Below are positions 16,403 to 52,609 of a stretch of 64,000 nucleotides of DNA, one piece after another; position 1 is the first letter of the stretch; each line of letters begins with the position of its first letter. The stretch lies in the NCBI GenBank assembly GCA_029946105.1, contig JAQSDW010000016.1, positions 1-64,000 on the forward strand, read 5' to 3'. Below the pieces are notes generated by a model that did not search any database, had not been told where the DNA came from, and saw only the letters and a program-made list of their open reading frames with translations. The position numbers and the translations under genes are program-made. This stretch comes from Reyranella sp. Its GTDB lineage: Bacteria > Pseudomonadota > Alphaproteobacteria > Reyranellales > Reyranellaceae.

Positions 16403-16513
16403 GAGGCCGGTAATTCCTGTGCGCAGCGGCGATACTACGTTCAGCCACACCGCGTAAAGGCAAACAAGCCTCAAGGCCCTTGCACCCGCTGGGCGAGGTT
16501 CGTATAAAAGCCG

Positions 16514-16570
16514 TCCGTGGAATTTGGGCCGACCGGCTTGCGACCACGTTAAACATCGCTAAAAGGTCGG
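16514..16570 (+). promoter_or_regulatory. SAM-II riboswitch (metA motif)
   Basis: CCGTGGAATTTGGGCCGACCGGCTTGCGACCACGTTAAACATCGCTAAAAGG: P1 CGTGG/CCACG, GGCTTGC, ACGTTAAACA and GCTAAAAGG match the SAM-II consensus I know; upstream of metX. Confidence 0.9.
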
Positions 16571-16579
16571 AGAGCTTGA

Positions 16580-16612
16580 AAAAGCCCCCGGCCTTAGGTC
16601 GGGGGCTTTTTC
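16580..16612 (+). terminator. Intrinsic terminator between SAM-II aptamer and metX
   Basis: AAAAAGCCCCCG-gccttaggt-CGGGGGCTTTTTC, directly downstream of the aptamer and upstream of the metX start. Confidence 0.85.
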
Positions 16613-41981: not shown

Positions 41982-43484
41982 ATGAACCTGAAGGGATGGC
42001 GTGCCGCGGGTGCGGCCTTTCTTGCCGGCGCGCTGGCGGCATTGGCGATGCCGCCGCTCTATTGGCTGCCGCTGGCCGTCGTGGGCATGGTCGTCTTCGT
42101 CTGGCTCTGGGAGACGGCACCCGGGCCACGCAGCGCCTTCCTGCGGGGCTGGGCGTGGGGCATCGGCCATTTCGCCGTCGGCTCCTACTGGATCCTCGAG
42201 GCTTTTTCCGTCCCGCCGGCCGACTACGAGTTGCTGGGACCACCGATTGTGGTCGGTCTGTCGGTGATCCTGGGCTTTTTCCCAGGCTTGGCAGCCGGGG
42301 TGGCGCGATGGGCGGCCCTGCGTTGGCCCGCGCTGGCGGGGCGCTATCGCCGTCTCATCCTCCTGGCGATCGCCTGGACCATTGCCGAATGGCTGCGCGG
42401 TCACGTCTTCACCGGCTATCCGTGGAATCCGCTTGGTCATGTCTGGGCCTTCGCGGCCCCCCTCGTACAGGGAGCGGCGCTGTTCGGCGTGTATGGGCTC
42501 GGGGCCTTCACCTTCCTCATCCTGGCGGCGCCGACCGCCGGATGGCGCGCCTCGATCGCTGCCCTGGTCGCGGCGGGCCTGGCCGGCGCCGTGGGGCAGG
42601 TGGCGATCCAGCCCGCCGCCGACGATGGGCCGCTGGTGCGCATCGTCCAGCCAAATATCCCGCAGTCCGAGAAATGGCGACCGGACACCCGGGCCCGGCA
42701 CCTGGCCAAGCTGATCGAGATGAGCCGCCGCCCCGGCTTCGACCGCCTCGCCGCCGTCATCTGGCCGGAGACGGCTCCCCCGTTCATCATCGAGCCGGGG
42801 TCACCGGCGTTGGAAGCCATGGCCGCGGCGGTGCCGCCCCGCGGCTACTTGCTGACCGGAGCTGCCCGCGGGACCGGCCGGCGCGAGGACGGCGTGTGGA
42901 ATTCGCTGCTGGTCATCGACCCGGCGGGCAGCATCGTCGCGCACTACGACAAGGTCCATCTGGTGCCGCTGGGCGAGTACATCCCGTTCCACAAGCAGCT
43001 TGCCCCGGTGTCCGGCCTCATCGGTCGCGGGTCGTTCGAAGTGGGTGAGGACCGCGTCACCCTTGGAATTCCCGGGCTGCCGTCTTTCTCGCCGGTGATC
43101 TGCTACGAGGTGATCTTCCCGGCAGCGGTGACGGGCCCCGGCGAGCGGCCCCGCTGGCTCCTGAACATCACCAACGATGCGTGGTTCGGCCTCTCGAGTG
43201 GCCCCTTCCAGCATCTCGCCAGCGCCCGCCTGCGGGCGGTGGAAGAAGGTTTGCCCATGATCCGCGTCGCCAACACCGGCGTATCCGCCGTGATCGACGC
43301 CTATGGCCGGGTCCTGGCGTCGCTCGACATGATGGAGGAAGGCATTATCGATCACCCCCTCCCGCAAGCGCGCGAGGTGACACCGTATGGTCGCTGGGGG
43401 GACGGCATCCTGTTGGTTATCCTGGCGTTGATGGGTGGCTGTTTGGTTGTGGGAGGAACGCGGGCTGGCCGGACTCGAACCTAG
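41982..43484 (+). CDS. lnt: Apolipoprotein N-acyltransferase
   Basis: GWAWGIGHFAVGSYWI, VIWPETAPPF, YDKVHLVPLGEYIPF, CYEVIFP, NITNDAWFGLSSGPFQH. Confidence 0.95.
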   Translation: MNLKGWRAAGAAFLAGALAALAMPPLYWLPLAVVGMVVFVWLWETAPGPRSAFLRGWAWGIGHFAVGSYWILEAFSVPPADYELLGPPIVVGLSVILGFFPGLAAGVARWAALRWPALAGRYRRLILLAIAWTIAEWLRGHVFTGYPWNPLGHVWAFAAPLVQGAALFGVYGLGAFTFLILAAPTAGWRASIAALVAAGLAGAVGQVAIQPAADDGPLVRIVQPNIPQSEKWRPDTRARHLAKLIEMSRRPGFDRLAAVIWPETAPPFIIEPGSPALEAMAAAVPPRGYLLTGAARGTGRREDGVWNSLLVIDPAGSIVAHYDKVHLVPLGEYIPFHKQLAPVSGLIGRGSFEVGEDRVTLGIPGLPSFSPVICYEVIFPAAVTGPGERPRWLLNITNDAWFGLSSGPFQHLASARLRAVEEGLPMIRVANTGVSAVIDAYGRVLASLDMMEEGIIDHPLPQAREVTPYGRWGDGILLVILALMGGCLVVGGTRAGRTRT

Positions 43485-43684
43485 TCCGCTTCGACGGTCC
43501 ACCGGCCGGAGGTTCAGCTTGCATTATGAATAAGAGGGGCTAATGTGTTATGCAGCTTAGGCGTGCAGATATGCATTTCTGCACATGTGAATTCTACGAT
43601 TCACCACGTGTCCTGAATGTATTTCCCGCCGATCATGCAACCGTATGGCCGTTAAGAAATCGCATATAAGAGGAACCTGGACCG

Positions 43685-44140
43685 ATGGCAAAATCTCATC
43701 CGGTTGACGTCCATGTAGGGTCGCGCATGCGTCAGCGGCGCACGCTCCTTGGCATGAGCCAGGAGAAGCTCGGGACGGCCGTCGGGCTCACGTTTCAGCA
43801 GATCCAGAAGTACGAGCGCGGGTCCAACCGGATTGGTTCGAGCCGGTTGTTCGAGTTCGCCAAGGTCCTGGACGTGCCGGTGTCGTATTTCTTCGACGAG
43901 ATGCCGGCCAACGCGCTGGCCGGGCGGCCGATGTCGGGTCGCGGCCGCAAGGGCTTCGGCGAGGCTGCCACGCCGTTCGAGCAGGAAAAGGACCCCTTGA
44001 TCAAGCGCGAAACCCTCGAACTGGTGCGCGCCTACTACAAGATCCGTGAGCCCCGTGTGCGCAAGCGCATCTTCGAGATGGTCAAGGCCGTGGGTGCGGC
44101 CAGCCACGCCGAAGTCCTGGGCGGCCGCAAAGGCCGCTAG
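43685..44140 (+). CDS. XRE-family regulator, PhrR/PraR-like
   Basis: MRQRRTLLGMSQEKLGTAVGLTFQQIQKYERGSNRIGSSRLFEFAKVLDVPVSYFFDEM; located between lnt and metK as in rhizobial phrR/praR. Confidence 0.88.
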   Translation: MAKSHPVDVHVGSRMRQRRTLLGMSQEKLGTAVGLTFQQIQKYERGSNRIGSSRLFEFAKVLDVPVSYFFDEMPANALAGRPMSGRGRKGFGEAATPFEQEKDPLIKRETLELVRAYYKIREPRVRKRIFEMVKAVGAASHAEVLGGRKGR

Positions 44141-44366
44141 GAGGAGGTCGCTGGGGAGAGGCGGTCCGGAGCTAGGGTTTTAGGGCCGCTTTTCTGTGCC
44201 TCTTGATTTTCATCGATAATTGGAGTTTTTAGCGGCGCGGCCTTGATGGTCGATGCCGCCGCGGACGGATTTGGACGACTTGCCACCGCGAAAATAAAGG
44301 CTAAGCCGGACGTTGGCGGCCCCTGCTGCCCTGCCCGGAGTCCAGTGTGAACTGTGGGAGGGTATT

Positions 44367-45653
44367 GTGGCGCTCAAGGACTATCTTTTTACCAGTGAAT
44401 CCGTCTCCGAAGGACATCCGGACAAGGTCAGCGACCAGATTTCGGACGCGATCCTCGACGCCTTCATTGCCAACGACGTCAAACTTGGCATTGCCGACGA
44501 CAGCCATGCCAACACACGCCTGGGCTGCGAGACGCTGGTCACGACCAACAAGATCGTGATCGCGGGCGAAGGCCGCGCTTCCGAGCCGTACATGAAGAAG
44601 TACGGCACGCACACGGTCGTCAACCGCGAAGCACTGACCGAAATCGCCCGCAACGTCGTGCGCGAGATCGGCTATGACCAGGACGGCTTCTCCTTCCATG
44701 GCGCCGACGTCGACGTCCTGTTGCACGGCCAGTCGCCCGACATCGCGATGGGTGTCGACGCCAAGAAGAAGGGCGGCAATCTCGGCGATCAGGAAGGCGC
44801 GGGCGACCAGGGCCTGATGTTCGGCTTCGCCTGCCGCGACAGCGAGGAATACGAGAAGGGCTCGTTCATGCCGGCCCCGATCTTCTTCTCGCACAAGATT
44901 CTCGAAGTGCTGAGCAAGGCCCGCCGTTCGGGTGAACTCGGCGACCTGCAGCCCGACGCCAAGAGCCAGGTGACGGTGCGCTATGTCGACGGCAAGGCCG
45001 TCGGCGCGGCCAAGGTCGTGGTCTCCACGCAGCACCGCGAGATCACGGCAAAGGGCAAGAAATACAACTCCGGCATGATCCGCGAGATGATCGCGGGTCA
45101 CGTCGCGAAGTCGCTGCCCAAGGGCTGGATGCCCAAGAAGGCCGCCGATTTCTTCGTCAACCCGACCGGCAATTTCGTCGTCGGCGGCCCCGACGGCGAT
45201 TGCGGCCTCACCGGGCGCAAGATCATCGTCGACACCTACGGCGGCTTCGCCCCGCACGGCGGCGGCGCTTTCTCGGGCAAGGACCCGACCAAGGTCGATC
45301 GGTCGGCTGCCTATGCCGCCCGCTATCTCGCCAAGAACGTCGTGGCCGCGGGCCTCGCCGACCGCTGCCTGATCCAGGTCGCCTATGCGATCGGCGTCGC
45401 CGATCCGATGTCGCTCTATGTCGACACCCAGGGCACCGGCAAGGTCGACGAGCGCAAGCTCGAGAAGATCCTCAATGACATCTTTCCGCTGCGCCCGACC
45501 AACATTCGCCGCGGCCTGCAACTCAACAAGCCGATCTACCAGCGCACGGCGGCCTACGGTCACTTCGGCCGCAAGCCCGAGCGCGACGGCGGCTTCTCGT
45601 GGGAGCGCACCGATCTGGTGCCCGAACTGAAGCGGGCGTTCGGCGCACGATAA
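44367..45653 (+). CDS. metK: S-adenosylmethionine synthase
   Basis: [72 protein letters not shown] start. Confidence 0.97.
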
Positions 45654-51695: not shown

Positions 51696-52184
51696 AGGCG
51701 AGGACTCCCAATGGCGGCCGCTGCATTGGGCAGCCAATACGGTGAAGGCGGTCCGTCTAGCATGGAATTGGGGCCGAAACACGAAAGCGAGGCAGCTCGA
51801 CGGCGCGTTGTTACCCAAGGTGTGCTTGCCACGTCCATTCGACGCCAGCACGTATCCGGCGCACGCCGTCCCTCTCAAATCCGTCTGGCCGCGATCCTCT
51901 GTCGATTCGCTGCAAGGTCCCGGGTCGGATATCATAAGGCACTGATATTAAATGATAATTCGGGCGGAGCAGCGCAAATTCGAGCCAAACAGAACTACCC
52001 TTTTCGATTATCTTATGCGCGCAATATGCACGAATTATTGAGAATTGCGGGGAACGTCCCCAATCAGATATGCAGTTTTGCAGGTGACGAAGCCTTGGTT
52101 CGTTTGTTAGGGTATTTGCATTAGAGGCGTTTGGTCAGACATCGAAATTCATATCTGAAAGGCATTTGATCCCGACTTGGCAGT

Positions 52185-52360
52185 GCTCCGTCGCCGGAGC
52201 CACCCTTGTCCACCCAGTTTCACATAGCCCGCCGGCGGCCCCCAAGCCGCTATCGTCGAAGTCCCCTTCCCACACACCCCAAGACTTCGACAATCCCACA
52301 GACTAGGCGGGCTTCTAAGGAAGGCCGGTCGTTCCCCAAGCGGCCGGCCTTTCGTATTTT
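52185..52360 (+). ncRNA. Candidate small RNA with CCCCAAG hairpin loops and terminator
   Basis: Hairpins GCTCCG-tcgc-CGGAGC; GCGGC-CCCCAA-GCCGC; GTCGAAGTC-cccttcccacacaCCCCAA-GACTTCGAC; AAGGCCGGTCGTTCCCCAAGCGGCCGGCCTT then TTCGTATTTT. Confidence 0.6.
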
Positions 52361-52609
52361 CGAGACGTGTTGTCCGCACAGGAACGCGTCGGCCGCTTGT
52401 GCCCCCCGAACAACGCCTGAAGGGCGTTCTTGCAGGCTGGGGTGAGGCGGATATTTGCGATTCGTCGCAACACCAGACCTACCAAAAATGCCTATCTTGG
52501 AAAAAATATCCAGCAAAAATCGGGCTATCTCATCCATGAGATATGCATTTTTGCAAGTTACATTCGAATAGTGTCCTGTTAGGATTGGGTCATTAACGAG
52601 ATTCCTATT

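Follow-up and report, generated by a model that had tools for sequence, protein, structure and literature searches.

Within a 64,000-nucleotide stretch of Reyranella sp. DNA (the window), an intergenic region presents CCCCAAG three times in close succession, which raises the question of whether it encodes an RNA that acts in trans through C-rich loops. The reading that best explains the data, and that is probably correct, is a free-standing, Reyranella-specific regulatory small RNA (sRNA) that is co-regulated with a TetR-family regulator and whose C/A-rich loops would pair with mRNAs in trans.

Fold and parts of the predicted RNA

The CCCCAAG copies start at 52240, 52277, and 52334 on the plus strand, exactly where the preliminary description had placed them. 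The motif is not enriched in the window overall (6 observed versus 6.9 expected), and a trio within 101 nt is far above the number expected from the window-wide density. The plus strand of 52185-52362 folds with a minimum free energy (MFE) of −75.5 kcal/mol, compared with −46.3 ± 3.8 kcal/mol for dinucleotide shuffles (z = −7.75), a value reached by 0 of 200 shuffles. The opposite strand gives a z of only −1.9, which is ordinary given its composition.

The predicted structure is a four-helix RNA (52226-52353, plus strand) composed of a closing stem, two inner hairpins, and a terminator (Table 1). Hairpin 2 (52255-52291) has the 9-bp stem and 19-nt loop originally described, whereas hairpin 1 (52234-52251) and the terminator (52319-52353) are present with stems of 6 and 15 bp rather than the 5 and approximately 13 bp first given. 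The preliminary description did not include the 8-bp closing stem, which unites both inner hairpins as a single domain. The terminator stem is directly followed by GTATTTT, and its tail is interrupted (UUUCGUAUUUU). A further hairpin noted earlier, GCTCCG-tcgc-CGGAGC, is present at 52185-52200; it shows no genus-wide conservation and is missing in the short-leader form. Folding of the longer transcript from the predicted start near 52120 retained the main domain. Depending on the start used, the predicted sRNA would be about 135 to 245 nt long.

Table 1. Positions of the predicted sRNA, its promoter, and associated elements in the window
Feature	Position	Strand	Remarks
Operator-like motif AGATATGCAGTTTTGCA	52066..52082	+	just 5′ of predicted sRNA promoter; kept at nearly all genus copies
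Predicted sRNA promoter	52084..52113	+	−35 GTGACG 52084-52089, 18-nt spacer, −10 TAGGGT 52108-52113
Variable 5′ leader, long form	52120..52225	+	absent in short-leader relatives
Inverted partial motif TTCATATCTGA within leader	52148-52158	+	
sRNA main domain	52226..52313	+	same helices in 50 homologues folded singly
Main domain, closing stem	52226-52233/52306-52313	+	compensatory changes
Main domain, hairpin 1	52234-52239/52246-52251	+	loop CCCCAA; compensatory changes
Main domain, hairpin 2	52255-52263/52283-52291	+	19-nt loop CCCUUCCCACACACCCCAA; compensatory changes
Main domain, G-poor linker	52292-52305	+	
Intrinsic terminator	52319..52362	+	stem 52319-52333/52339-52353, loop CCCCA, tail GTATTTTCG
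tetR promoter	52539..52585	+	motif AGATATGCATTTTTGCA 52539-52555, −35 GTTACA 52557-52562, 17-nt spacer, −10 TAGGAT 52580-52585
TetR-family regulator, 214 aa	52624..53268	+	Pfam TetR_N, weak, below curated cut-off
Third motif copy AGATATGCATTTCTGCA	43567..43583	+	upstream of XRE-family gene 43685-44140

Conservation and covariation within Reyranella

Searching the genome itself and 60 relatives at the DNA level retrieved the sRNA from 34 of the 37 sampled Reyranella genomes, the own genome included (E values down to 6e-73 in relatives), and from 0 of 24 genomes outside the genus. An exact 28-nt pattern returned 33 records from the public genome collection; these include R. aquatilis, the cultured strains Reyranella massiliensis 521 and R. 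soli NBRC 108950, and many metagenome-assembled genomes (MAGs) of Reyranella or Rhodospirillales. A few of the MAGs are titled Rhizobium sp. or Enhydrobacter aerosaccus, titles that are probably labels and not other hosts. A covariance model (R1, built before single-sequence folding replaced the RNAalifold consensus) revealed no convincing homologue outside Reyranella among 289 genomes of the class, and the sRNA was found neither in G246, which represents the family's other genus, nor in G037, from the order's other family. Six genomes with weak model matches (E values of 1e-5 to 1e-2) contained, on reading, isolated GC-rich terminator hairpins or nothing.

Indels of 1 to 2 nt in the loops put both inner hairpins in the wrong place in the RNAalifold consensus of a MAFFT alignment; base pairs were instead counted on anchored arms after folding each homologue alone. 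Treated in this way, the 50 homologues repeatedly yield the landmark hairpins, and in 45 of them the number of helices of 5 bp or more is exactly four. All helices vary while mostly retaining pairing, with paired fractions of 0.90 to 1.00. Double compensatory changes are observed in helix 1 (4 positions, 12 cells), helix 2 (3 positions, 6 cells), and helix 3 (4 positions, 17 cells), and exceed nearly all of 500 shuffles, which ignore sequence relatedness. In the closing stem, AGCCCGCC/GGCGGGCT is replaced by TACCCGCC/GGCGGGTA, AGTCCGCC/GGCGGACT, or AGCTCGCC/GGCGAGCT; in hairpin 1, GGCGGC/GCCGCT is replaced by GACGGC/GCCGTT or GGCAGC/GCTGCT; and in hairpin 2, GTCGAAGTC/GACTTCGAC is replaced by ATCGAAGCC/GGCTTCGAT. 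The terminator stem (helix 4) is invariant or compensated in 48 of the 48 sequences tested, and since it hardly varies, its covariation is uninformative. The hairpin and loop pattern, whose conservation in related genomes had been proposed as a check, is thus kept with compensatory changes.

These data bear on the possibility that the locus encodes no functional RNA and consists only of GC-rich palindromes with a terminator, or of a small open reading frame (ORF). ORFs of 76 to 95 aa do overlap the region, and the weak model matches show that similar GC-rich terminator hairpins occur elsewhere in the class. However, the homologues differ between species by 1- and 2-nt indels that leave no consistent reading frame, which excludes a conserved one, and the stems change in a compensatory manner while an unpaired loop stays near-invariant and the promoter is conserved. 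Already contradicted by the covariation, this explanation is extremely improbable. The fold, the terminator, and the frame-breaking indels support the original view of an intergenic, structured RNA with its own terminator. The features generally expected of an sRNA gene are found together here: an intergenic position, an intrinsic terminator, no ORF, and an own promoter, the last predicted from conservation only.

Searches against Rfam 15 at gathering and permissive thresholds gave no match at the locus (the best subthreshold score, 17.9 bits, is at chance level) and none for the sRNA in six relatives, in agreement with the earlier statement that it belongs to no recognized family. On this comparative evidence, the predicted sRNA is real, previously uncurated, and restricted to Reyranella. 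A literature search combining Reyranella and sRNA found nothing related, so the genus appears to have had no structured sRNA family described before. Elsewhere in the window, at 16507-16582 (plus strand), the Rfam search identified a SAM_alpha riboswitch (53.9 bits).

Promoters, operator-like motif, and linkage to tetR

The sRNA lies between a minus-strand Sel1-repeat gene pair and tetR. Its promoter was inferred from conservation and from the position of the −10 element in short-leader relatives, immediately 5′ of the RNA core; a σ70 consensus scan at the locus did not call it. Column conservation places the predicted start near 52119-52121. Almost every sRNA copy is preceded by a block formed by AGATATGCAnTTTTGCA, a −35-like GTGAC, 17 to 18 nt, and TAnnnT. 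The tetR promoter, defined from an alignment of 47 relatives, is near-identical to that of the sRNA, contains the same conserved block, and is equally conserved.

At all loci examined, the sRNA is located immediately 5′ of tetR on the same strand, and this arrangement, together with the identical promoter type, would fit an element that acts in cis on the tetR transcript, as its leader or attenuator, with no separate sRNA. In contrast, the sRNA ends in a strong terminator that is followed by approximately 180 nt and an equally conserved second promoter before tetR begins. Moreover, unlinked third copies of the sRNA exist in five genomes (L032-L036), and no tetR homologue was found near them. 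A leader function is therefore quite unlikely, and a free-standing sRNA is preferred.

The 17-bp operator-like motif, searched with up to 3 mismatches, occurs exactly three times in this genome, upstream of the sRNA, tetR, and an XRE-family gene flanked by ORFs that read as lnt (41982-43484) and metK (44313-45653). It is present in 55 of 61 congeneric genomes, the trio recurs among relatives, and a reversed-pattern control was essentially empty. The XRE regulator lies 8.5 kb from the sRNA, and several relatives show the same arrangement at about 8 kb. Given this common motif, the sRNA, tetR, and the XRE gene probably answer to a single DNA-binding regulator, and because unlinked sRNA paralogues in three genomes also carry a version of it, that regulator must act in trans. 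The motif is centered about 45 to 46 nt upstream of the predicted sRNA and tetR starts, a position that would be more usual for an activator than for a repressor. The motif also recurs in inverted, partial form, as AGATAGGCATTTTTG and TCAGATATGAATTT (minus-strand reading), between the sRNA and tetR (52483-52497) and in the sRNA leader (52145-52158); these copies are possibly paired operator sites.

The XRE protein as the binder of this motif is conceivable but not supported. Upstream of XRE homologues of other orders, the sRNA/tetR motif was not found, and the idea that it is an ancestral operator of the XRE gene was rejected, since these homologues lack it and several have a different palindrome. 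The absence of the motif from these genes makes the co-conserved TetR a better candidate, and TetR is accordingly favored as the putative binder. The palindrome in question (approximately GCATAC-N4-GTATGC), found near promoters of several XRE homologues of other alphaproteobacterial orders (L088-L113), is likely the autoregulatory operator of those genes.

The tetR orthologue is 63 to 95% identical among congeners, and nothing found elsewhere in the class exceeds 35% identity. Six genomes of the genus contain neither the sRNA nor its motif; in five of them no close tetR orthologue is present either, two of these five being poorly complete (77% and 81%). In the sixth (L255, G070:C92), no sRNA was found, and a transposase-like sequence replaces the first codons and the promoter of tetR at the contig end, which reads as a natural disruption of the pair. 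These joint absences indicate that the RNA and the regulator come and go together.

In many relatives a second, partial copy of the sRNA (copy B), corresponding to the 3′ half with the hairpin 2 loop and the terminator, directly follows the tetR stop codon. The tetR of the window has no such copy in its 3′ untranslated region (3′UTR), and its lineage has lost it. Since the sRNA and tetR units are alike at both ends, a shared origin by duplication is suggested. The tetR 3′UTR and terminator could then be ancestral, acting as a regulatory or stabilizing element, with the free-standing copy (copy A) a by-product of little function. Copy B has loop 2 and the terminator in common with the sRNA, and the two units have similar promoters, as this origin predicts; copy A, however, is the better conserved, contains the complete domain, and is kept where copy B was lost (the window and L003-L005), making such a by-product very unlikely. 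A more far-reaching proposal is that the sRNA and tetR are sister transcription units that arose by duplication, matching in promoter and operator at one end and in the sRNA-type 3′ end at the other, one of which then lost its coding part, and that TetR, the free-standing sRNA, the tetR 3′UTR sRNA, and the XRE regulator form one closed protein/RNA circuit. This is offered tentatively, as a doubtful but conceivable extension; if true, the protein and RNA arms of the circuit would derive from related units.

For the preferred free-standing sRNA, the link to a TetR regulator is unusually tidy. One operator motif marking three genes, together with a linked regulator, provides a genetic handle, and natural variants exist with and without the 3′UTR copy, with short and long leaders, and as unlinked paralogues. 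The origin and joint action of an sRNA and a transcription factor that have the same promoter can be examined cleanly at this locus.

Exposed loops, candidate targets, and known systems

Ensemble folding and the 50 homologue structures agree with the original claim that the C-rich loops are exposed. CCCCAAG copies 1 and 2 are unpaired as far as the final G, and copy 3 is unpaired only at CCCCA, five bases that alone lie outside the terminator stem. The proposal that CCCCAAG is a repeated pairing module holds only in part: three exposed C-rich copies are present, but that of loop 1 drifts to CUCCCAAG or UCCCCAGG in relatives, and the third is the 5-nt terminator loop. The 3′ end of loop 2 is CCCCAAG or, often, CCCUAAG, CCAAAG, or CCACAG. 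Because loops 1 to 3 vary or pair among relatives, the trio of CCCCAAG modules is in part peculiar to this genome by chance. Of all exposed strings, CUUCCCACACACCC in the 19-nt loop 2 changes least, being near-invariant across the 50 structures, and a second A/C-only linker, usually AACCCCACACCCA, precedes the 3′ arm of the closing stem. Unpaired bases in these structures are 52% C, 28% A, 16% U, and 4.7% G, whereas paired bases are 38% G. The general property maintained by selection is that a rigid scaffold displays single strands poor in G and rich in C and A.

Targets were sought with the complement of loop 2, as a 17-mer with up to 2 mismatches and as an exact 11-mer. Full-length complements are essentially absent from the genome, and the exact loop-core complement GGGTGTGTGGG occurs in the antisense of the sRNA itself, in a tRNA-like T-arm, and inside a long ORF, and nowhere else. 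Overall, the matches fell in copies of the sRNA itself, in coding regions, in a tRNA-like T-arm, and at dispersed sites that are not orthologous between relatives, so that this search yielded no conserved target site for the exposed C-rich loop. A candidate site beside an ATG in one genome (G020) was dropped because that genome lacks the sRNA. At L248 and L252 (G003:C78 and G002:C17), a short stretch conserved between two genomes contains GGGTGTGTGGGGAGA, which is complementary to the sRNA loop.

The main rival to base pairing in trans is a protein-binding decoy or sponge, in which the scaffold offers repeated A/C-only strands that titrate an RNA-binding protein and no mRNA is paired. The near-invariant exposed strings are indeed A/C-only repeats (CCCACACACCC in loop 2 and usually AACCCCACACCCA in the linker), three exposed C-runs would be well suited to multivalent contacts, and long conserved complementary sites were not found. 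Against this, no candidate protein with such specificity was identified, and base pairing by C-rich loops is an established design, as in GsrN (PMC5869019); a decoy role is considered unlikely. In the preferred base-pairing mechanism, the sRNA would be transcribed from a promoter with a rare operator-like motif common to the adjacent tetR and the nearby XRE gene. The rigid closed domain and the terminator would leave G-poor, C/A-rich single strands exposed, chiefly CUUCCCACACACCC, and these would base-pair, probably with the aid of Hfq, with G-rich parts of mRNAs, either leaders or ribosome-binding sequences, and so change their translation or stability. If the sRNA pairs, it would use short seeds, perhaps of 6 to 8 nt, and the expected mRNA sites would be GGGUGUGUGGG- or CUUGGGG-like near the start codon. 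Hfq is encoded in the genome (PF17209, E = 2.1e-32).

The predicted sRNA is of a known kind and not categorically new. The actinobacterial 6C RNA has two or more hairpins that present C-runs, as do the hairpins of the Reyranella sRNA. The latter, however, comes from a different phylum, has a closing stem around its hairpins, and presents a mixed C/A loop instead of C6; among all curated Rfam families, 6C RNA included, none matched at the locus. Closer in phylogeny, the Rhodobacter CcsR/cuckoo RNAs and rhizobial αr14 (suhB) are alphaproteobacterial sRNAs with repeated C-rich loops that present CCUCCUCCC-type anti-Shine-Dalgarno sequences. The conserved loop motif of the Reyranella sRNA is CUUCCCACACACCC instead, and CCUCCUCCC was found in 0 of 50 aligned homologues.

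In GsrN of Caulobacter, described in eLife in 2018, an exposed C-rich loop pairs with G-tracts in mRNA leaders (katG); this RNA is Hfq dependent, is conserved in sequence only narrowly, at the family level, and is expressed from a σEcfG promoter, being located near ecfG, nepR, or phyR outside C. crescentus (PMC5869019). The C-rich element of GsrN is a 5′ loop, whereas that of the Reyranella sRNA is the 19-nt loop inside a closed domain. The Reyranella promoter is also not of the σEcfG (GGAAC) type but has AGATATGCAnTTTTGCA-GTGAC-N17/18-TAnnnT, and the RNA is linked to tetR and not to ecfG, nepR, or phyR; the neighbors searched correspond to Sel1 repeats, TetR, cytochrome c′, and cytochrome b561. 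Both are alphaproteobacterial RNAs with an exposed C-rich loop and narrow conservation, and by analogy with GsrN (PMC5869019), the Reyranella RNA is most likely a trans-acting, base-pairing sRNA.
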